Below, piece by piece: positions 11,423 to 23,455 of a stretch of 33,219 bases of DNA (its first letter is position 1; each line of letters opens with the position of its first letter). Source of the stretch: Chloroflexota bacterium (lineage in GTDB: Bacteria > Chloroflexota > Chloroflexia > Chloroflexales > Roseiflexaceae); contig JACAEQ010000038.1 of NCBI GenBank assembly GCA_013388755.1, positions 1 to 33,219 of the forward strand. Direction: 5' to 3'. Made by a program: the position numbers and the translations under genes. The notes beneath the pieces are model-generated. The model was not told the origin of the DNA. It saw only the letters and a program-made list of their open reading frames with translations, and searched no databases.

Positions 11423-14400
11423 TTATTCCCGCGCCAGCGGTGCCAGGCGCGTGGCAACCAGGTTGACGACACCCGCTTCATGCTGGACGATACCTTCCAC
11501 CTTCAGCAGGTGCCCGCCACGTCGCTCACGATACAGCGGGACAAGGTACGGCCTGACGATGACGTTGATCATGCCGGATTCATCCTCCAGCGTGATGAAA
11601 TGGAACCCTTTCGCCGTTGGCGGCGCCTGATGGACGACGACAACGCCGATCACCCGGGCGCGTTGACCGTCCGGGCAGCGCGCCAGCGCCAGGCTGTCGA
11701 GGTAGCCGCGTGCAGTGAGGGCATCGCGCCAGCGCGCCAGGACATGATCACCGGTCGAGACGCCCAGCAGCGCCATTTGCAACTCCCGGGCTTCGTCGGC
11801 GGTGAGCGCGGGAAGATCGACCGTGCTGCCAGGGATCGGCAGGTCGAGTTCGTCGGCGGCGTAGTGGAATGTCCCGAGTTCCCAGAGCAGCCTGCGCCGC
11901 TCGGTTCCCCATCCGTCGCACGCGCCGGCCAGGATCAGGCGCTCGACCAGGCCTTTCGGCAGGCGGGTGCGGCGGCAGAGATCGGCCAGGCCGGCGAATG
12001 GTCGCGCTGCAATGATTCGCCCGGCGCCGGCCTCACTCAGCCCCGACACATAGTTCAGCCCCAGGCGGACGCTCCCGTCCATCTCCAGCACACAACGCAT
12101 TCCGCTGGCATGGATGTCGAGCGGCGCAACACGGACTTGATGCCGCCGCGCGTCGCGCACCAGCACTGCCGGCGGCCAGAATCCCATCGGCTGGTGGTTC
12201 AGCAGTGCAGTAAGAAATGCCGCCGGGTAGTAGCGCTTCAGCCAGGCAGACTGATAGACGATGACCGCGAAGGCCGCTGCGTGGCTCTTGGGGAAGGAGT
12301 AGCCGCCAAAGGCTTCGAGCTGGCGGAAGACGGCGGCAGCGACCGGCCCGGCGACACCGTTACGTGCGGCGCCGGCCAGAAATGCGTCGCGAAATGGTGC
12401 GATGGCTTCCGGTCCTTTGCCCGCTCCCAGCGCGCGCCGCAGTCGTTCTCCTTCTCCCGGAGTAAAGCCGGCCAGGTCGCGCGCGACTTTGATCACCTGT
12501 TCCTGGAACAGAATGACGCCCAGCGTCTCTTCCAGCGCCGGCTTGAGCCGTGGATGCAGGTAGGCGACCGCCTCCTGGCCGAGCCTGCGGCGCAGGTAGG
12601 GATGTACCATGTCGCCCTGGATGGGACCGGGGCGGATAAGCGAAATGGCAACGACAATATCGGCGAACTGCTGTGGCCTGAGGCGCGGCAACATCTGCGC
12701 CTGCGCACGTGATTCGACCTGGAAGACGCCGATTGTGTCGGCGGCAGCAAGCAACTGGTAGATCGCCGGATCGTCAAATGTCAGCCGGTCGAGGTCGAAC
12801 GGTTCGCCCCGCTGATCACCCACCAGGCGCCCGGCTTCGCTCAATACTGCAAGCATCCGCAGACCAAGCAGGTCAATTTTGACCAGGCCAACATCCTCAA
12901 GCATGGTTTTGTCCCATTGCACGACGGCGCGCCCGGGCATGGCCGCCGGTTCAACCGGCACACGGTCGGCCAGTGGTGCGCGGGTCAGTACCATGCCACC
13001 GTTATGTTGCCCGAGATGGCGCGGCAGATTGTTGAGCTGGCGGCAGAGCGTTGCGGCCAGGGTACGCACCCGGTCGGGGGTATGGTCGCCTTCCAGCAGC
13101 AAGTGTTCAGTCGTAACATCAAGCGCCCTGGCGACATCGCGCAAGGCGGAACGTTCCTGAAACGTGGAAAAGGTGCAGGCCATGGCGGCATGCGCCGGGC
13201 CGTAGGTGCGGAACACATACTGGATCACTTCCTCACGCCGGTCGGAGGCAATATCGAGATCGATATCCGGCAACGCCGGGCGTTCAGCCGAGAGAAAACG
13301 CTCGAACACCAGGTCGTAACGCAGCGGATCGATCGGGCTGATGCCGAGCAGGTAGGCGACCAGCGAATTCGCGGCGCTGCCACGCCCCTGGCAACGAATA
13401 CCCTGTGTCCGCGCGTATCGCACCAGATCCCAGACGATCAGGACGTAGTTGCTCAGATGTGCCCGGGCAATAATGTGCAGCTCATGGGCCAGTTGCCGGC
13501 AGGCACGTTCGGGGTTGCCGGGATAGCGGCAAGGCAACGCCTCGGCGCACAGGCGCGCCAGGTACCCATCGGCGTCATAGCCGGGTGGCGTCGGGAAGCA
13601 TGGCAGGTCCTGCAGGCCATACTGGAGCGTAAAGATACAGCGCCCGGCAATGGCGCGGGTTGCCGCCAGCGCCTCGGGGTAGGCGCCGAACAGCGGCATA
13701 AGGCGCCCGCCACTTTTGAGATAATACTCTGAGTTTGCACGCAATCTCTTGCCGGCATCATCGAGGGATGTGCGGTGGCGGATGGCGGTCAACAGATCGT
13801 GTAGCGGCTGCTGGTCACGGCGCGCGTAGTGGACGTTATTGGTTGCGACGGTATGCAGGCCGAGATGGCGCGCCAGTTCGGCCAGACGCCGCACCAGGAC
13901 GGCATCTCCCGGATGCAGGTGATGCTGGAGTTCAACGAATGTGCGTTCAGGGCCGAACCGTTCACGGAGCCATGTTGCGGCACGAACGGCGCCGGGCATG
14001 TCGAGGCGCCGCAGCGGCGCGGCAACCGGCCCCTGACGGCAGCCGGTCAGGCAGATCAAGCCGCCGGTATGGTCGTCGAGTGCAGCGGGGGGCAGCGCGG
14101 GCCGGCCTCTGGGTGTGTGGTGGCGCGCCATGCTGATCAACCGGCAAAGATTGCGCCAGCCGGTAGCGTTTTCAACCAGGAGCGTCAGGTGTGAGTCATC
14201 GGTGAGTGTGAGTTCGGCGCCGAGGATCGGGTGCATACCACGCGCGCGCGCCGCCGCCACGAACAATGGCGCGCCATAGACCGCATCGTGATCGGTGAGC
14301 GCCAGGGCGTCCATGCCCAGGCCGGCGGCGCGCGCAATGAGTTCGGCAGGTGTGGATGCACCGTCGCACAGGCTGTAGCACGAGTGGCAGTGCAGCTCGA

Positions 14401-14425
14401 TATAATCAGATCCCCGGTCAGTCAT
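11423..14425 (-). CDS. dnaE2: Error-prone DNA polymerase III alpha subunit, DnaE2/ImuC type
   Basis: 1000 residues from the ATG at 14425, shorter than replicative DnaE (about 1160) and in the range of DnaE2. It starts with a PHP domain (ELHCHSCYSLCDGAST, LTDHDAVYGA). The C-family palm follows, with GRGSAANSL and the catalytic acidic motif PDIDLDIASDRREEV, then the fingers and helix-hairpin-helix region. A C-terminal OB fold (VIGVVVVHQAPPTAKGFHFITLE) closes the protein. It is expected to extend primers past lesions together with ImuB and ImuA. The gene overlaps the DUF6504 gene by eight bases, and this overlap decided the start; the open frame extends 12 codons further. It is the fourth gene of a five-gene run. 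Confidence 0.93.
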   Translation of the reverse strand: MTDRGSDYIELHCHSCYSLCDGASTPAELIARAAGLGMDALALTDHDAVYGAPLFVAAARARGMHPILGAELTLTDDSHLTLLVENATGWRNLCRLISMARHHTPRGRPALPPAALDDHTGGLICLTGCRQGPVAAPLRRLDMPGAVRAATWLRERFGPERTFVELQHHLHPGDAVLVRRLAELARHLGLHTVATNNVHYARRDQQPLHDLLTAIRHRTSLDDAGKRLRANSEYYLKSGGRLMPLFGAYPEALAATRAIAGRCIFTLQYGLQDLPCFPTPPGYDADGYLARLCAEALPCRYPGNPERACRQLAHELHIIARAHLSNYVLIVWDLVRYARTQGIRCQGRGSAANSLVAYLLGISPIDPLRYDLVFERFLSAERPALPDIDLDIASDRREEVIQYVFRTYGPAHAAMACTFSTFQERSALRDVARALDVTTEHLLLEGDHTPDRVRTLAATLCRQLNNLPRHLGQHNGGMVLTRAPLADRVPVEPAAMPGRAVVQWDKTMLEDVGLVKIDLLGLRMLAVLSEAGRLVGDQRGEPFDLDRLTFDDPAIYQLLAAADTIGVFQVESRAQAQMLPRLRPQQFADIVVAISLIRPGPIQGDMVHPYLRRRLGQEAVAYLHPRLKPALEETLGVILFQEQVIKVARDLAGFTPGEGERLRRALGAGKGPEAIAPFRDAFLAGAARNGVAGPVAAAVFRQLEAFGGYSFPKSHAAAFAVIVYQSAWLKRYYPAAFLTALLNHQPMGFWPPAVLVRDARRHQVRVAPLDIHASGMRCVLEMDGSVRLGLNYVSGLSEAGAGRIIAARPFAGLADLCRRTRLPKGLVERLILAGACDGWGTERRRLLWELGTFHYAADELDLPIPGSTVDLPALTADEARELQMALLGVSTGDHVLARWRDALTARGYLDSLALARCPDGQRARVIGVVVVHQAPPTAKGFHFITLEDESGMINVIVRPYLVPLYRERRGGHLLKVEGIVQHEAGVVNLVATRLAPLARE

Positions 14426-14672
14426 ACACGCGCTGGAGCCGCCACTGGTCGATTCGTACATCGTGGTAGATCAGCACCAGCAGGCCGCTATGCGTCACAA
14501 GCTGGAAGTATTCGCGCCAGGCACGCCGTTTCCACCACCCTTCGTCCACCCGCCAGCGTTCGATGACCCGATCCACCGTATGGTATCGCCCGCGCCAGGC
14601 AAAAGCCGCCGGTGTGGCCAGCGCATCTACGGTGACTTCGAGTGGAATGCCGTCACTCCAGAAGCGGCTCAT
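14418..14672 (-). CDS. DUF6504-like small protein of the mutagenesis operon
   Basis: 84 residues, rich in Trp and Arg (FWSDGIPLEVTVD, FAWRGRYHTVDRVIERWRVDEGWW, HDVRIDQWRLQRVYD). I match it to DUF6504, a small family that in many bacteria is encoded between imuB and dnaE2. The function is unknown. The compact beta-rich look and operon position suggest a mutasome accessory or DNA-contacting subunit. Its start overlaps the imuB stop by four bases (ATGA), and its stop overlaps the dnaE2 start by eight, so all three are translationally coupled. The ATG at 14672 is chosen over longer in-frame starts because of this overlap. Confidence 0.8.
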   Translation of the reverse strand: MSRFWSDGIPLEVTVDALATPAAFAWRGRYHTVDRVIERWRVDEGWWKRRAWREYFQLVTHSGLLVLIYHDVRIDQWRLQRVYD

Positions 14673-15856
14673 GAGGCCTCCCAGGGTTCCCACGCGATCC
14701 GCTGCTCTAGGCAGCGTGCATCGGGCGCAACCAGGCGAATACGACGCAACTGGCCGGCATGACGCGGCGCCAGGCGGGTGAGCGTTTCCTGGAGGTGTGC
14801 GGCGCACGACGCCGGCGCAGGGAAGAGTTCACCCTGTTCGGCATACACCTGCGCCGGCGCCGCGTCTACCAGAAGCCGGTCAATCGCGCCCTCAGCCAGG
14901 AGCGAGTCGAGCAGGGCGATGAGGATCGCGGCGATCCTGGCAGCGTCGCTCGTCGGCCCGACCAGGGCACGCTGTGCGCGACGTGGTGCGCCGGTATCGC
15001 TGGTCACGGTCAGGGTCAGGCCACGCGCCGCCTGCCCTCCCGCCTGAAGCCGCTGCGCCAGCCGGCCGGCAATCCGGCGGAGTGCGGCGTCGAGTACGGA
15101 GCGATCGATTACACTACTGGAAAAGCGCCAGCCGACGGTGACACGCGTCTCGCGCGATTCGGCCGGCAGTGGCGGTAGATCGAGGCCACCGGCAAGTTGG
15201 TACAGCATACGACCGGCGGCGCCGAACTGGGCCTCAAGTGCGTCGAGGGGAAGCGCCGCGACCGCGCCAATCGTCCGCAGCCCGAACCGGTGGAGGCGTT
15301 CGATGAGCGCCTGGTCGAGTGGTAGCAGGTCGGCGGGCCATGGCGCAAGCCAGGCGGCCTCGCGTCCCGGCGGCACAACGACGACCGCGCCAACTGCTGC
15401 CGTTCGCGCGGCGATATGACCGATGGCCGGATGCGCAGCGAGTGCGAGTACCGGCACGACGCCGAGCGTCTGAAAGATCATGTCGCGGATGCGTTCTCCT
15501 TCGGCGTGCGTCTGCGCCGGCGACAGGCGACCAATATCGGCGGCGACGGCGACATCCGGCGGCGAGGCGAGCAACCAGGTGCGCGGCGCCAGGGTTGCAA
15601 GGGTCGCACGCAGTAGAGCGACCGCGGCAGCAACACGCTCCGGCTCATCATGGCGGATGGCAGCCGGTGGGCAGGAGAGCCGGGCCCGGCGTAGCGTCAG
15701 GCCACGCGCAACCCCCGGCGCATCGGCAGCAACAACGACCGGCTGGCCGGCGCGTCGCCCCAGCACCACAAGCGGCTGATCGGCAAGCGCCGGTTCGGCG
15801 CGCCGGGCGAGGGCAACCGGCAAATTGGGAAGATACACGACAGCCGTCATGATCAT
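14669..15856 (-). CDS. imuB: ImuB, Y-family polymerase-like mutasome subunit without catalytic residues
   Basis: 395 residues with Y-family (DinB/UmuC) architecture: palm and fingers, the helix-hairpin-helix thumb (ALIERLHRFGLRTIGAVAALPLDALEAQFG) and a little-finger domain. The first catalytic Asp motif, usually D-D-FFA, reads VVYLPNLPVAL, and the second, usually SIDE, reads PPDVAVAADIGRL. The metal-binding carboxylates are therefore missing, as is known for ImuB, which acts as a hub linking DnaE2 to the beta clamp. I did not find an unambiguous clamp-binding pentapeptide. The ATG at 15856 overlaps the imuA stop by four bases. Confidence 0.88.
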   Translation of the reverse strand: MIMTAVVYLPNLPVALARRAEPALADQPLVVLGRRAGQPVVVAADAPGVARGLTLRRARLSCPPAAIRHDEPERVAAAVALLRATLATLAPRTWLLASPPDVAVAADIGRLSPAQTHAEGERIRDMIFQTLGVVPVLALAAHPAIGHIAARTAAVGAVVVVPPGREAAWLAPWPADLLPLDQALIERLHRFGLRTIGAVAALPLDALEAQFGAAGRMLYQLAGGLDLPPLPAESRETRVTVGWRFSSSVIDRSVLDAALRRIAGRLAQRLQAGGQAARGLTLTVTSDTGAPRRAQRALVGPTSDAARIAAILIALLDSLLAEGAIDRLLVDAAPAQVYAEQGELFPAPASCAAHLQETLTRLAPRHAGQLRRIRLVAPDARCLEQRIAWEPWEAS

Positions 15857-16644
15857 AGGGCATCCCCGTCGCGCGGAAAGGTGATTGGCAGTTCGATGTG
15901 CGCGCCATCGGCGGCGCCGCGTCGTTTGAGCACGGTGATCCGGGCCCGGCAGGCAACATCATCACCGGGAGCGATGTGCCATGCGCTTCGAGCGACATGC
16001 AGCCGGAGGGTCGCGGCGTGCGCCAGCGGCGATCCTGGCCCGGCGAGGTTTTCCGCGACTGCGGTGGGATAGGGCAGAAACGTCAGCGCGACAAGGGCCG
16101 TCGGCGCCCGGGCGAGAACCGGAGCAAGGCGGCGCAGCGCCGTAGTGAGCAGGGGTCGCCCGCCAGGCGCGACCGGTAGCCATGCCAGCGAGTCAATCAC
16201 CAGCATGCCCAGACCTCCGCTGGCGACGAGCGCCTCGACCAGTTCAAGGGCGTCAGCGGCGCCTGTGGGGCGCGCGAGGAGCAGATCGTGGAGCACGACG
16301 CCGCATGCGGCGGCATAGAGGGCGTCGAACACACCGCTCAGGTCAATGCAGGCGCCAGGCTCACCATGTGCCTGTGTCTGCGCCAGGGCCGTCAGCGCAA
16401 TCGTTGTCATGCCTGATGTTGGCGCGCCAAGGAGTTCGGTGATCGCGCCACGCGGGAGACCACCTTCAAGGAGGGTATCGAGGGCCGCGATATGTGTCGG
16501 GAGAAGCGCGCGTTCAGTGTGGCCAGCCACGCCCCGGCGAATCGCGTGCGTCCCCCAGCGGCGCTGGATGGCGGCGATCAGCCGATTGATCGCAGGCGCA
16601 TATGCAGATCGCCCATGGGCGACGTCCGGGTCGCGTGCTGACAC
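15853..16644 (-). CDS. imuA: ImuA, RecA-like mutasome protein
   Basis: 263 residues with a RecA/SulA-like core. PTHIAALDTLLEGGLPRGAI is the usual lead-in, followed by the Walker A region at 73-81 (GAPTSGMTT) and a Walker B-like strand (LGMLVIDSLAW). Position 79 of the P-loop is Met in place of Lys, so ATP binding may be weak or absent. ImuA proteins bind ImuB and help recruit the error-prone polymerase. It is the first gene of the operon, with a GTG start at 16644, and its ribosome site (GGTGA) lies within the dyad 16647-16733. Family assignment rests on the RecA-like core plus immediate coupling to imuB. Confidence 0.85.
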   Translation of the reverse strand: MSARDPDVAHGRSAYAPAINRLIAAIQRRWGTHAIRRGVAGHTERALLPTHIAALDTLLEGGLPRGAITELLGAPTSGMTTIALTALAQTQAHGEPGACIDLSGVFDALYAAACGVVLHDLLLARPTGAADALELVEALVASGGLGMLVIDSLAWLPVAPGGRPLLTTALRRLAPVLARAPTALVALTFLPYPTAVAENLAGPGSPLAHAATLRLHVARSAWHIAPGDDVACRARITVLKRRGAADGAHIELPITFPRDGDAL

Positions 16645-16646
16645 TG

Positions 16647-16733
16647 GTTGTCACCATTCCAGAAAACGAAACACACGTGCGATTGCATCCTAACGAACAA
16701 GTGTGCTTCTGTTCATGACAGAATGGTGACAAC
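16647..16733. promoter_or_regulatory. Large nested dyad at the head of the imuA operon
   Basis: The outer arms GTTGTCACCATTC (16647-16659) and GAATGGTGACAAC (16721-16733) are perfect 13-bp inverted repeats. Inner arms GAAACACACGTG (16668-16679) and CAAGTGTGCTTC (16698-16709) match with two differences. The left outer arm covers the imuA ribosome site. A CTGT-TCATG-ACAG near-palindrome lies at 16709-16721. The layout suits a divergent operator, or a regulator binding two inverted sites, but only imuA is a convincing gene beside it. Confidence 0.6.
16687..16715 (-). promoter_or_regulatory. Candidate imuA promoter with LexA-like overlap
   Basis: On minus, TGAACA (16715-16710) and TAGGAT (16692-16687) are separated by 17 bases, each with two differences from consensus. 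GTGCTTCTGTTC (16703-16714), which matches 10 of 12 bases of the gyrA-upstream GAAC-N4-GTTC site, covers the -35 hexamer. A repressor bound there would block polymerase. Confidence 0.35.
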
Positions 16734-16800
16734 TACTGGCGGTATGCGCGCTCACCAGGCACAGGTCCGCGGCTTCGTTCGACCACACACCCGCGCCATG

Positions 16801-17155
16801 GATCCTCGTCCCGGCACGGCGCGGGCGGGTGATGGGGGCGTGGTCGACCCTCGTCCGGGCGCGGCGCGGGCGGGTGATGGGGGCGTGGTGGTACATTGGA
16901 TGGGATGGGATGCGATGGGATGCGATGGGATGGGATGCGATGGGATGCGATGGGATGCGATGCGATGGGATGCGATGCGATGGGATGGGGTGGGGTGGGA
17001 TGGGATTGTAGGGACGCAGCGCGCTGCGTCCCTACAACCCCCGCCATCCGCCATCCCGCCCGGCCGCCGCGCCGCATCCCCCGCCATCCGCCATCCCGCC
17101 CGGCCGCCGCGCCGATATCCTCCGCCATCCCGCCCGGCCGCCGCGCCGCGCACCG
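16801..17155. repeat. Composite repeat element, copy 1
   Basis: Four parts in order. Part one is two 45-bp units (16801-16845, 16846-16890) sharing GCGGGCGGGTGATGGGGGCG. Part two is about 21 tandem pentamers of GATGG/GATGC (16899-17005). Part three is a perfect 32-bp palindrome with no loop (17006-17037, left half TTGTAGGGACGCAGCG). Part four is nearly three units of about 40 bp rich in CCGCCATCC and GGCCGCCGCGCCG (17038-17155). The same order recurs at 23142-23455. Long frames are open through it only because the units are multiples of three or five without stops; I do not call a protein. It fills most of the 16734-17459 gap. Confidence 0.85.
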
Positions 17156-17388: not shown

Positions 17389-17459
17389 AGAATGTGAGTC
17401 GGCATGTGCGTAGCGGATCAGACAGTGACTGGTATCGCGCAAGTCATGGAGCAGAAGCG

Positions 17460-17783
17460 ATGACGACAGTTGACAATGAGCAGGTACACAAACAGCCGGT
17501 GACGCGATTGCTGTTGCGACTGCGCGAACGGCGCGCTGATCTGGTCAAGCGCTATCACATCCATGAATTGGGCGTATTTGGTTCCTATGTGCGGAATGAG
17601 CAGCGTCCCGATAGCGATATCGATCTGCTGGTGTCGTTCACCCAGACTCCCAGCCTGCTGACATTGGTGCAACTTGAGGATGAATTAAGCGAACTGCTGG
17701 GTGTCAGGGTTGACCTGGCGGTCAAAAGCGCGCTTCGCCCCCGTATTGCCGAGCATGTGCTGCATGAGGTCGTGCCAGTATGA
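17460..17783 (+). CDS. mntA: MntA-type nucleotidyltransferase antitoxin
   Basis: 107 residues of the minimal nucleotidyltransferase (MNT) family. The signature is GS at 41-42 followed after ten residues by Asp53-x-Asp55 (GSYVRNEQRPDSDID), with a further Asp in RVDLAV. In known pairs, MntA transfers AMP groups to a tyrosine of HepT and so silences it. GGAG lies 8 bases before the ATG at 17460; the open frame begins at 17394 but has no such site. The stop overlaps the hepT start by four bases (ATGA), the usual arrangement of this type VII toxin-antitoxin pair. Confidence 0.92.
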   Translation: MTTVDNEQVHKQPVTRLLLRLRERRADLVKRYHIHELGVFGSYVRNEQRPDSDIDLLVSFTQTPSLLTLVQLEDELSELLGVRVDLAVKSALRPRIAEHVLHEVVPV

Positions 17784-18148
17784 GCGCGCCTCGCGGATAC
17801 CTTGACTATCTCGACGACATCGCGACCGCGCTTGATGCTGTCGCGAGCTTTCTTCAGGGTCTTGATCTGGATGGTTTTCGCAGTGACATCAAGACCGTCT
17901 ATGCAGTCACCCGGGCGCTGGAAATAGCCGGCGAGTCAGTGAAACGATTGCCGGAAGATGTGCGTGCCCGTCATCCAGGCATTCCCTGGCGGTTAATGGC
18001 AGGGATGCGCGATCGCCTCATTCACGGGTATGATACCGTTGATGTTGCTATCCTCTGGCAAACCGCGACACAGGATGTAGCTGCTCTTCGTGATCCGCTC
18101 GCCGAAGTCATTCGCCAGGAACGAATAGCTGCTGGTGAAAGCGCCTAG
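17780..18148 (+). CDS. hepT: HepT-like HEPN ribonuclease toxin (DUF86)
   Basis: 122 residues, all-helical HEPN fold. The catalytic RX4HXY motif is intact: Arg77, His82 and Tyr84 in RDRLIHGY. Arg and His form the RNase site, and the Tyr is the residue AMPylated by MntA. It probably cleaves RNA (tRNA in characterised relatives) when released. It is coupled to mntA by ATGA. Both partners look intact, so the module could be active. It lies in a repeat-rich, rearranged stretch, which fits transfer or plasticity. Confidence 0.92.
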   Translation: MSAPRGYLDYLDDIATALDAVASFLQGLDLDGFRSDIKTVYAVTRALEIAGESVKRLPEDVRARHPGIPWRLMAGMRDRLIHGYDTVDVAILWQTATQDVAALRDPLAEVIRQERIAAGESA

Positions 18149-18506: not shown

Positions 18507-19118
18507 CTATCGATCCCGCAGGTAATCCGTCAGTCCGGGCGGCAACTCGCTCTGCGTCGCCCCGTCCGGCAGGTCGATCCCCAACGCCGGGTTGGTCATC
18601 ACCGGAGCAATCGGCGCCTCATACCCGCGAATGTAATCCGTCAGCCCGGGCGGCAACTCACTCTGCGTCGCCCCGTCCGGCAGGTCGATCCCCAGTGCCG
18701 GGTTGGTCATCGTCACGCCCATCGGTTCCACGAGCCGGAAGTAGTCGGTGTAGCCGCCAGGCAGGCTCTCGCGGGCCACGCCGACCGGCGCGTCAATTCC
18801 CAGCACCGGGTTGCGGACGATCGCCGGCGGTGCAACCGGCACCACATAGCCGCGAATGTAATCGGTCAGGCCGTTCGGCAGATTCGCGTCCGCCGCGTCG
18901 GCCGGCAGATCGATGCCCCAGACCGGGTTGGCCACGATCTCCAGCGGCGCAGGCGCGACCACCGGCACTTCCACCGGCTGCTCCGCCGTGCGCCCTCGCC
19001 AACTCATCACTCCCGCAATCACCACCGCGGTTGCGGTTGCGACCGCTACCGCCGCCACCTGCCATCCCCCTATCCGTCCATGCGGCCGGGTGTGCTTCAT
19101 GTTCATCTGGGCTGCCAT
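18507..19118 (-). CDS. Membrane-anchored protein of four about-30-residue repeats
   Basis: 203 residues. A short basic N-terminus is followed by one membrane helix (about 20-40, WQVAAVAVATATAVVIAGVM), so the rest should face outside. The exported part has four copies of NP-LGID-P-GA--S-LP-GLTDYIRGY, at about 62-92, 99-130, 136-168 and 170-200. The last two are nearly identical, a sign of recent duplication. I do not recognise the family. Surface display or ligand binding is possible, but no catalytic motif is visible. GGGAGG lies 8 bases before the ATG at 19118. It is divergent from the large regulator (158-base gap), and a decayed copy of the same divergent pair lies at 23648-23773, so the two genes appear to move or work together. 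Confidence 0.8.
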   Translation of the reverse strand: MAAQMNMKHTRPHGRIGGWQVAAVAVATATAVVIAGVMSWRGRTAEQPVEVPVVAPAPLEIVANPVWGIDLPADAADANLPNGLTDYIRGYVVPVAPPAIVRNPVLGIDAPVGVARESLPGGYTDYFRLVEPMGVTMTNPALGIDLPDGATQSELPPGLTDYIRGYEAPIAPVMTNPALGIDLPDGATQSELPPGLTDYLRDR

Positions 19119-19232: not shown

Positions 19233-19276
19233 AGTGATACTCCCGCTGATACACGCCGCTGTGTGGGGATGTGGCT

Positions 19277-22200
19277 ATGGCCGAGCCGGTGCTATCGTTC
19301 GGCGCCTGGGTGCGCCGCCGCCGCCAGGCGCTGGCGCTGAGCCGGGACGACCTGGCCGGCGCGGTTGGCGTCGCGCCGGTGACGCTGCGTAAGATCGAGG
19401 CCGACGAACGCCGCCCCTCTGCCGAGGTCGCCGCCCTGCTGGCGCGCCAGCTCGACCTGCCGCCCGACCTGCACACCGCCTTTGTCCAGGCGGCCCGCGG
19501 CCTGCTGGCGGTGGATCGCCTGCCCGACCCGGTTCCGCCCCACCTGCCGCTGGCCGACCACCCCGCGCCAACCGCCCTGCCATCCGGCGCGGTGACCTTC
19601 CTGTTCAGTGATATCGAGGGCAGCACCCGCCGCTGGGAGGCAGAACCGCAAGCCATGGCGTGGGCGCTGGCACGCCACAATGCGATTCTGGCTGACACGA
19701 TCGCCCGGCATCATGGCCAGATATTCCACAGCGCCGGTGATGGGCTGTGCGCCGCCTTCGCCGACCCCTCTGCCGCAATCGCCGCCGCAATCGCCATCCA
19801 GCGCGCACTGGCGTCCGAACCCTGGCCGACGAGCGAGCCACTGACGGTGCGGTTGGCGCTGCACACCAGTACGGCAAGCCCACAGGATGGCGACTATGTC
19901 GGCCCGCCGCTGAACCGCGCGGCCCGGCTGCGTGATGCCGCGCACGGTGGCCAGGTGCTACTGAGCCAGACGACCGCCGGCCTGGTGCGGGACACGTTGC
20001 CGGAGGGGGTGACGCTGCGTGAGCTGGGGCTGGCCCAGTTGCGCGACCTGAACCGGCCTGAGCCGGTCAGCCAGTTGGTGATACCCGGTTTGCCCGACAC
20101 GTTCCCGCCGTTGCGCACGACGACCGCCGCGCCCGGACATCTACCCACGCCGCCGACGCCGCTGATTGGCCGGGCGCGCGAACTGGCCGAATTACGCGCG
20201 TTACTGGCGCGGCCGGAGGTGCGGTTGGTGACCTTGACCGGCGCGGGCGGCAGCGGCAAGACCCGCCTGGCGCTGGCGATGGCCGAAGACGTGGCGGCGG
20301 CGTACCCCGATGGCGTGTGGTTCGTCGACCTGGCGCCGATCCGCGACCCGGCGCTGGTGGCGGCAACCATCGCGACGACCCTCGGCGCGCCGCAGCATCC
20401 CACCGTTGCGCGGGAGCAGGTGCTGTCGGCGTTTCTGCGCGAGAAAGCGCTGCTGCTATTGCTGGATAACTATGAGCAGGTGGTGGCGACCGCGCCGCTG
20501 GTGGCCAAGCTGCTACAGGCCGCGCCACGCCTGACGGTGCTGGTCACCAGCCGGGTGGCGCTGGATCTACGCGCCGAATATGGCTACCACGTCGTGCCGC
20601 TGTCGTTGCCAACGCCGCCCGATCTCAGCGTGCCCGACCTGGCGCGACTGGCGCAGTCCGACGCGGTACGCTTGTTTGTGGCGCGGGCCGAAGCTGCCCA
20701 GACCGGGTTTGCCCTCACAGACGCGAACGCGCCGGCCATTGCCACCATCTGCACCCGGCTCGATGGGCTGCCGCTGGCGATTGAACTGGCGGCGGCGCGG
20801 CTGAGGCTGTATGGCGCGGAGGGGTTGCTGCGCGCGTTGACCGAACACGGCGCACTGGGCATGCTGACCGGCGGTGTGCGGGATCTGCCGGCGCGGCAAC
20901 GAACCATCCGGGCGACGATTGCATGGAGCTACGACCTGCTCGAACCGGCGGAACAGGCGCTGCTGGCGCGCTTGAGCGTATTTGTCGGCGGTTGGACGCT
21001 GGACGCGGCGGTGGCGGTGTGCGGGGACGGAGGTGGGCAGATTGAAAGGGACGGAGTATGGCCGAAGCATTCGTTTACCAGCGATTCGCCCAACACCAGC
21101 GTCGATACACGAATGCTTCGGCCCAGTGGCGTTACCCCTGCACCCACTCTCATCCCATGCACCGCAGTCGCGGACATACTGGAAACCCTGCTGGCCCACA
21201 GCCTGGTACGGGCGGTGGAGGGGCCGGGTGACGCGCCACGCTTCATGATGCTGGAGACGGTGCGGGAGTACGCGGGTGAACAGTTGCGCGAACGAGGTGA
21301 GGCGGCGGCGCTGCAGCGGCGGCATGCCGCCTACTGGGCCGATTGGGCGGAAATGGCCGAACCGCATTTCCACGCCCACGAGCAGTTGGAGTGGCTGGCG
21401 CTGGCCGATGCGGAGCAGGAGAACATTCGCGCCGCATTGACCTGGGCTGAGCAGCACAGCGATGATGAAAGCGCCGCGCTGCTGGGGTTGCGGATTGCGG
21501 TCAATATGGAGGCTGCCTGGGGACTGCGCGGGCACGAAACTGAACAGTTGCGCTGGTTGAGCAGCGCGCCGTGGGTTCACGATTCCCGTCTGCCAGCACA
21601 TCTGCGAGCTCTGGCGTTGATACTCGACTCGGTCTGGGGCATTGACCTGGGGTATGGGCACAGAAGCGATGTACTGATCGAGGAGGCGACGGCGCTGGCG
21701 CGTGAGTCTGGCGACCCGCGCGCACTGGCGTTTGCGCTCTATCAATTGCCCGATATCCTCACGGATGCCGAAAAGCGAGCTCGGTTACAGGAAGGTCTTG
21801 CGATCGCCCGAACAATCGGTCATGAGGGGTTACTGTTGTGGCCATATCTCATCGAAAGAACCATTCCGTTTATAGCTGATGCCATCCCTGACGACCCTGC
21901 GTTCTATGAACGGGTTCTGGCGCGCACCCGCGCGATTGGCGATCGTGGAATGGTTATGGGCGAACTCTATACCTATGGAAACCTGCTGCGATATCGTGGC
22001 AACTATGAATGCGCGCGGGAAAACCACCTCGAGTTGTTGCATCTTCAGGAACAGCTACGCGGTTCATCGCTGGCGTGGGGTGGATGGTATCAACTGGGTT
22101 GGCTGGCAGTGGCAGTCGGCGATATGCAAGAGGGGTATGCCTGGCATGCCCGACGCATTGAGTGGGATGGGCCGCTTGGTAATCACGCCGGATTGGCGCA

Positions 22201-22762
22201 TATCTTCATTGGCCTGGCGGAGATTGCCTGGGCAATGGGCGACATGGCGCATGCACGCGATCACATGGGTGAGGCAGATACCCATCTCAAGGCAACCGGC
22301 CTGCCGCCGGATGATCCTGAGTACTGGCGTATCACGAGTGGCTGGTGGTGGCATGGCTGGCTGGCGGCTGAAGCCGGTGAATATGTGGCTGCGCAGGTAT
22401 TCGCGAAACGTCTCCTGAAAGAAGCTCCCGACCAGGGAATCAATGGCCCGACGGCATGCTGGCAACACTGGTTGATGGGGGTAATCCAGCTAGCGCAGGG
22501 CAACGTGAGCGAAGCGCAAACCCAGCTGAGCCGGGCGATTGCGCTGACACCGCGACAATACCATGCAATGATATTCGAACCGCCGCCGCTCGACCTCTTC
22601 GATCCGCCGTTGCCGCTCATCCAGGCGCAACTGGCGCTGGCCGCCGCCCACACCGGTGATGCAACCGAAGCGCGGGCGCGGCTCATGGCAGCCGATACCG
22701 AACCACCCACCACGTGGTCTTCTGGCGCGGCGAGGAGCAGTTCACCCGCGCGGCGACATTGA
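19277..22762 (+). CDS. HTH - class III cyclase - NTPase - TPR regulator (frameshifted near its 3' end)
   Basis: About 1160 residues as read. An XRE-type HTH (about 5-70) is followed by a class III nucleotide-cyclase domain (about 95-285). Both metal-binding Asp are kept ([21 protein letters not shown]), as is the Asn-Arg pair (PPLNRAARL), so it could be catalytic. An NB-ARC/LuxR-type ATPase follows, with Walker A GAGGSGKT near 320 and Walker [11 protein letters not shown] near 395. A winged-helix-like region and TPR-type helices reach the C-terminus. It is probably a signal-integrating transcription regulator. The ATG at 19277 has GGGGA 7 bases upstream; an in-frame GTG at 19271 is the alternative. 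The frame is lost near 22706-22714, leaving an unrelated tail. A palindromic insert lies at about 21030-21170. Confidence 0.85.
21060..21123. repeat. Palindromic insertion inside the regulator gene, in frame
   Basis: GGCCGAAGCATTCGT (21060-21074) and ACGAATGCTTCGGCC (21109-21123) are perfect 15-bp inverted repeats with a 34-base centre. The insert separates the regulator stretches DAAVAVC and [16 protein letters not shown], which adjoin closely in relatives. About 40 residues of low-complexity, Ser/Thr/Pro-rich sequence are added without breaking the frame. Confidence 0.65.
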
Positions 22763-23139
22763 TCCGCCTCGCCGCGCCTGCCGAGGCATTGCCCCATCTG
22801 GCTGCAGGCTTTGCACACTTCCGGCACTGTGGCTCGCGCCACCGCATCGCCTGGGGATTGGAACTGACGGCACAGATCGTCGTGGCCGATGATCCCGCGT
22901 TCGCAACTCGCCTCTGGGGCGCGGTGGCAACGATCCGCGCTGCGACCGGCTGCCCTATGTGGCCCATCGATCACCCGGCGTATGACCACAACATCGCCGC
23001 CGCGCGCGAAACCCTGGGCGATGTGGCCTTCGACGCGGCGTGGAATGCCGGCGCGGCAATGCCATGGGAGACCGCCGCGAATGAGGCAATGGCATGGATT
23101 GCGGCGCGGCGCGATTCGGGCGATGGGATGCATGCATGA
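22714..23139 (+). CDS. C-terminal part of the large regulator, displaced by a frameshift
   Basis: 141 residues beginning at a GTG without a ribosome site. The sequence ([56 protein letters not shown]) is the usual C-terminal end of NTPase-TPR regulators, so this is not an independent gene. Adding one C to the CCC at 22706-22708 would join the frames as [15 protein letters not shown] and give a protein of about 1289 residues. It ends directly at composite repeat copy 2. Unless translation slips here, the product is truncated. Confidence 0.75.
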
Positions 23140-23141
23140 TG

Positions 23142-23455
23142 GGTATGCGTCGCCACGCGGCGCATGCCGGTGATGCGTGCGTGGTCGGCCCACGTCGCCA
23201 CGCGGCGCGGGCGCGTGATGGGGGCGTGGTGGTACATTGGATGGGATGCGATGGGATGGGATGCGATGGGATGCGATGGGATTGTAGGGACGCAGCGCGC
23301 TGCGTCCCTACAACCCCCGCCATCCGCCATCCCACCTGGCCGCCGCGCCGATATCCCCCGCCATCCGCCATCCCCCCGGCCGCCGCGCCCCGCCACATCC
23401 CCCCGCCATCCGCCATCCCGCCCGGCCGCCGCGCCGCGCCACATCCCCCCGCCAT
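23142..23455. repeat. Composite repeat element, copy 2
   Basis: Same order as copy 1. Two diverged 45-bp units (23142-23186, 23187-23231) are followed by the shared junction GGTACATTGG and about 8 GATGG/GATGC pentamers (23240-23281). The identical 32-bp palindrome comes next (23282-23313), then three to four units of about 40 bp rich in CCGCCATCC and GGCCGCCGCGCC (23314-23455). It starts within three bases of the end of the regulator's C-terminal frame. Pentamer number differs strongly between copies (about 21 versus 8), as expected of slippage. Confidence 0.85.

Follow-up and report, generated by a model that had tools for sequence, protein, structure and literature searches.

Two composite repeats in one contig of a Chloroflexota genome (Roseiflexaceae) probably owe their form to a double-foot GTAG REP that is moved, or was formerly moved, by a RAYT encoded elsewhere in the same genome, beside which locus-specific tandem arrays would have grown, the resulting block later being copied once. 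The element at their centre is a further case of a known kind, the double-foot GTAG REP and its RAYT, whose surroundings are here unusually rich in repeats; it does not represent a new class of mobile unit. The window, by which is meant the whole stretch of 33,219 nucleotides that was analysed, is contig C126 of a 5.08-Mb genome in 145 contigs.

Make-up and homology of the two composites

The composites measure approximately 350 bp and 314 bp and are spaced 6.3 kb apart, with an identical 32-bp perfect palindrome at the centre of both and their parts in the same order (Table 1). A reading made earlier from the sequence only had described a four-part composite with this order at two sites, a description that is confirmed with one correction: the pair of 45-bp units in the second copy is weak and is not reported by TRF. 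The composites align with each other at 88% over 201 bp and at 81% over 140 bp, with homology ending abruptly at approximately 16800/23138 and 17155/23440. The palindrome itself is far beyond chance, as no perfect palindrome exceeds 22 bp in 100 windows simulated with a dinucleotide Markov model. An Rfam scan of the window matched a tRNA alone, with no RNA family at the composites.

Table 1. Parts of the two composites, in window positions
Feature	Position	Strand	Remarks
Copy 1 outer left array, two 45-bp GC-rich units	16804-16889	.	TRF 1.9 copies, 95% match
Copy 1 GGATG/GATGC pentamer array	16898-17006	.	TRF period 5, 21.8 copies
Copy 1 32-bp perfect palindrome TTGTAGGGACGCAGCGCGCTGCGTCCCTACAA	17006-17037	.	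REP core 17008-17035
Copy 1 right array, 40-bp GC-rich units	17038-17149	.	TRF 3.0 copies
Copy 2, two diverged 45-bp units	23127-23171 and 23172-23216	.	pair 73% identical; aligned to copy 1
Copy 2 pentamer array	23239-23282	.	TRF 8.8 copies
Copy 2 palindrome, identical to that of copy 1	23282-23313	.	REP core 23284-23311
Copy 2 right array, 46-bp GC-rich units	23314-23455	.	TRF 3.2 copies

The surroundings of the composites include several features of separate interest. On the minus strand (11423-16644), a dnaE2-like polymerase, an ImuB-like Y-family protein and a RecA-like, ImuA-like protein stand in a row in what looks like an SOS mutasome operon beside the first composite, and immediately upstream of the RecA-like gene lies a 28-nt imperfect inverted repeat (TTGTCACCATTC..GAATGGTGACAA, 16632-16748) with 61 nt between its arms, a possible regulatory site. 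On the plus strand, an MNT nucleotidyltransferase and a HepT-like ribonuclease (17394-18148) form a pair that is likely a toxin-antitoxin or defence module, and a 1163-aa protein (19271-22762) combines HTH, nucleotide cyclase and NACHT/NB-ARC-like ATPase domains. A 111-bp tandem duplication, its length a multiple of three, is found in open frames at 18522-18725 (1.8 copies, 88%).

The palindrome as a dispersed GTAG REP

Judged by its features, the core of the palindrome, GTAGGGACGCAGCGCGCTGCGTCCCTAC, is a double-foot GTAG REP: it is perfect, it carries a GTAG foot and the complement of that foot at the opposite end, and it falls within the 20-40 bp size of REPs. The exact 28-bp core is found in 47 stretches of the genome_contigs set. 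Most of these are single copies scattered through Oscillochloris ZM17-4 and Chloroflexales ZM16-3, and the flanks are unrelated; copies with at most three mismatches number 30 in SKW209 and 12 in OHK40. In SKW209, variants such as GTACGGACG..CGTCCGTAC, GTAAGGACG..CGTCCTTAC and GTCGGGACG..CGTCCCGAC alter both arms symmetrically, so that pairing within the REP is maintained there. The assembly to which the window belongs holds only three intact exact copies of the core; half of another opens contig C13, and the palindrome copies of contigs C50 and C121 are decayed. As no empty site was found for the REP copies, their transposition is deduced from this dispersal. Outside this genome the exact palindrome is found mostly in Chloroflexales; an identical 28-bp REP also occurs at orthologous sites (L022:5494 and L054:2609) in two Rhodothermaceae-type genomes of a different phylum, Bacteroidota.

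The distribution of the palindrome bears directly on the earlier suggestion that the composite is a defined mobile unit. A non-autonomous unit with ordered modules would account for two copies that keep the same order and have fairly sharp ends, but there are just two such copies, both on one contig, and no further composite was found in the rest of the genome, in 60 relatives or in the class as represented by 158 genomes. Moreover, the palindrome copies elsewhere have other flanks: those on C94, C13, C50 and C121 and those in other genomes are without the arrays of the window, so that the expectation of flanking parts always in the same order largely fails. Visual inspection of the aligned ends showed neither terminal inverted repeats nor a target-site duplication, no linked gene was seen, and two linked copies of this description do not qualify as a composite transposon or MITE. 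Mobility of the composite as a whole is accordingly very unlikely, and the arrays do not accompany the palindrome as components of one constant unit; what survives of the suggestion is the involvement of a mobile element, the RAYT-linked REP.

RAYT genes that carry the REP

A candidate for the mover of the REP is provided by RAYT genes that contain it. In SKW209, a Chloroflexaceae MAG, an intact RAYT gene (L017:1699-2538; 279 aa) includes the identical core as part of its reading frame, and the protein shows MPDHIH as its HuH motif and YIASNP as its tyrosine motif. This protein scores 23.9 against Y1_Tnp, above the Pfam cutoff of 23, and matches NF047646 (REP_Tyr_transpos) at 1e-17 with a score of 64, below the NCBIfam curated cutoff of 80, a shortfall probably due to interruption of the match by the linker; its only match in the PDB is TnpA_REP (4ER8, E 0.032). 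The RAYT class 2 signature Y...NP is present, and the likeness to subclass 2.4 is one of REP type.

Two RAYTs of this kind are also encoded by the genome of the window, both interrupted at contig ends of the assembly. One is a partial gene, situated where contig C94 ends, that holds the identical core in frame, whereas the other is split by the assembly across contigs C18 and C71, which share a 14-base overlap inside another GTAG palindrome; when joined, these read through in frame to give 268 aa, with the palindrome and approximately eight copies of HVAGDGGE between the HuH and Y motifs. In all three proteins the REP is in frame after the HuH motif, and it lies between the HuH and Y motifs where both halves are seen. 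Because the genes are split by the assembly and by their linkers, a PF01797 profile search of the genome gave no match, and they were recovered with a protein query. No match to two RAYTs used as tblastn queries was found in the window, and hence no decayed RAYT around the composites.

Arrays beside REPs

Association of arrays with REPs was scored as a tandem array within 30 bp of a palindrome and compared with random sites. In SKW209 it is real, with arrays beside 18 of 30 palindromes against 5.5% of random sites. For the genome of the window, where the two composites are taken as one event, arrays are present at four of six independent loci and differ from one locus to the next: the composites, C94 (a 9-bp array left of the palindrome), C13 (which starts at the palindrome centre and runs into a 53-bp array) and C18/C71 (a 24-bp array); they are missing from C50 and C121. 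About 1 Mb of this genome was sampled in stretches. Arrays occur at 1.6% of its random sites and at 14 of 61 (23%) sampled contig starts, and three of its REP-array pairings are situated at contig ends, which often carry arrays in any case; an association in this genome is likely. Another dispersed repeat of the genome, a unit of 39-40 bp (GTCATTGCGAGCG..GACGCAATCTCCCATCTTCCGG), recurs in tandem at the ends of several contigs (C10, C29, C34, C35, C79 and C90).

The picture is different elsewhere. Arrays adjoin only 5 of 47 palindromes in the genome_contigs set, which consists mostly of ZM strains, against 5.0% of random sites, and 1 of 12 in OHK40, against 3.3%; the single OHK40 case (L206), with a 48-bp GC-rich array starting right after the palindrome, comes closest to the right side of the window composites. 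A general association of REPs with arrays across Chloroflexales is ruled out by the background level in the ZM strains, and since these strains are rich in REPs and show no array excess, REPs alone do not make arrays. The sequence-only reading had held that the arrays are not random satellites, which stands insofar as arrays of varied sequence adjoin REPs above expectation in the genome of the window and in SKW209, but does not extend to the ZM strains.

Order of arrival of REPs and arrays

How REPs and arrays came to be neighbors can be approached from either side. In one scenario, the minisatellites predate the REP, which would have been inserted into arrays, or more generally into hairpin-forming DNA, as a preferred target of the RAYT, the composite being duplicated thereafter. 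Evidence in this direction comes from mirrored flanks. At least four mirrored flank bases extend the REP in 18 of 50 cases in the genome_contigs set (1.1 when shuffled) and in 4 of 11 in OHK40 (0.44 when shuffled), with perfectly mirrored, locus-specific flanks at L016, L020, L029, L034, L035, L036, L040, L053 and L058; at L020, L035, L036 and L040, the REP occupies the precise middle of a second REP-like palindrome. This excess of REPs centred in longer palindromes in ZM strains and OHK40 suggests that the tips of hairpins already present are where REPs insert or are kept; no empty sites were found for this. Also compatible with arrays that precede the REP are a pentamer array in G016 that precedes a different GTAG palindrome and a (GCATC)n array in G061 near a REP-like palindrome.

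Other observations fit better with growth of arrays beside a REP already in place. The arrays near the REP inside RAYT genes occupy the same linker and yet differ in sequence from gene to gene. Many of the SKW209 arrays, unlike those of the window, contain REP fragments and therefore grew after the arrival of the REP, and the mirrored-flank excess is absent from SKW209. At the locus studied here, growth after arrival of the REP is favored as part of the explanation given at the outset, with insertion into a pre-existing array a serious rival despite its clearly lower probability.

Hairpin structure

As the palindrome would fold into a strong hairpin in DNA or RNA, palindrome and arrays could together be viewed as a structural or regulatory element, whether a long cruciform, a terminator or a regulatory site for the imuA-imuB-dnaE2 and mnt-hepT genes beside the first copy. 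Changes at orthologous REP sites of two ZM strains (L024:4220 and L034:1697), where the mirrored 10-bp stem next to the REP has changed once on both sides in a compensatory manner and twice to G-T pairs, are as expected of a transcribed hairpin. For the composites, however, no gene position is shared, because the genes around copy 1 are divergent and those around copy 2 convergent, and the proposed pairing of a GGATG-rich left side with a CATCC-rich right side holds at the level of base composition but does not exceed shuffles beyond it. Local alignment scores of the left side with the reverse-complemented right side fall within those of shuffled sequences, and single-strand folding energy gives z = 0.17 and -0.96 against dinucleotide shuffles. 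A cruciform through the arrays is rejected on both counts, the palindrome alone standing out, and a structural or regulatory role for the composite as such seems improbable.

Relation to known systems and implications

The palindrome shares with the double-foot REPs of TnpA_Y1 subclass 2.4 (PMC6006769) a GTAG 5' end, a complementary CTAC 3' end and dispersed genomic copies, but the intergenic copies described here have non-REP minisatellites on either side, and coding tandem repeats likewise precede or follow the copies within genes. The GTAG-tagged REP families, which include members from Chloroflexi (PMC3733652), have in common with it the GTAG tag, a palindrome of 20-40 bp and a dispersed, mostly intergenic location; large clusters reiterated in tandem along with flanking DNA have been described among them (PMC3733652), whereas the palindrome here is loopless and perfect and the arrays of the window do not contain the REP itself. 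With the REP/BIME elements of Escherichia coli and their TnpA_REP (4ER8; PMC8266576) it shares the GTAG guide and an HuH/Y1 transposase of the same class; the E. coli REPs differ in having a bulged stem and a single foot, in being paired with inverted REPs and in their lack of minisatellites (PMC8266576).

In the favored explanation, a RAYT (TnpA_REP, an HuH/tyrosine single-strand transposase) would have placed the REP at the locus, tandem arrays would have grown next to the REP hairpin, most likely through replication slippage or nick repair, and the array-REP-array block would then have been duplicated once within the contig to yield the two composites. A REP nested among local repeats in this way accounts for a striking composite, and a palindrome that looked like an orphan is tied to a transposase of the same genome. 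A further proposal, offered tentatively, is that RAYT-REP hairpins seed minisatellites in this Chloroflexota lineage, with nicking or fork stalling repeatedly building arrays both between genes and in the transposase linker, so that a domesticated transposase may drive local repeat growth. If true, the seeding of arrays by REPs would offer a testable route by which small hairpins lead to minisatellites and to longer proteins in bacteria.
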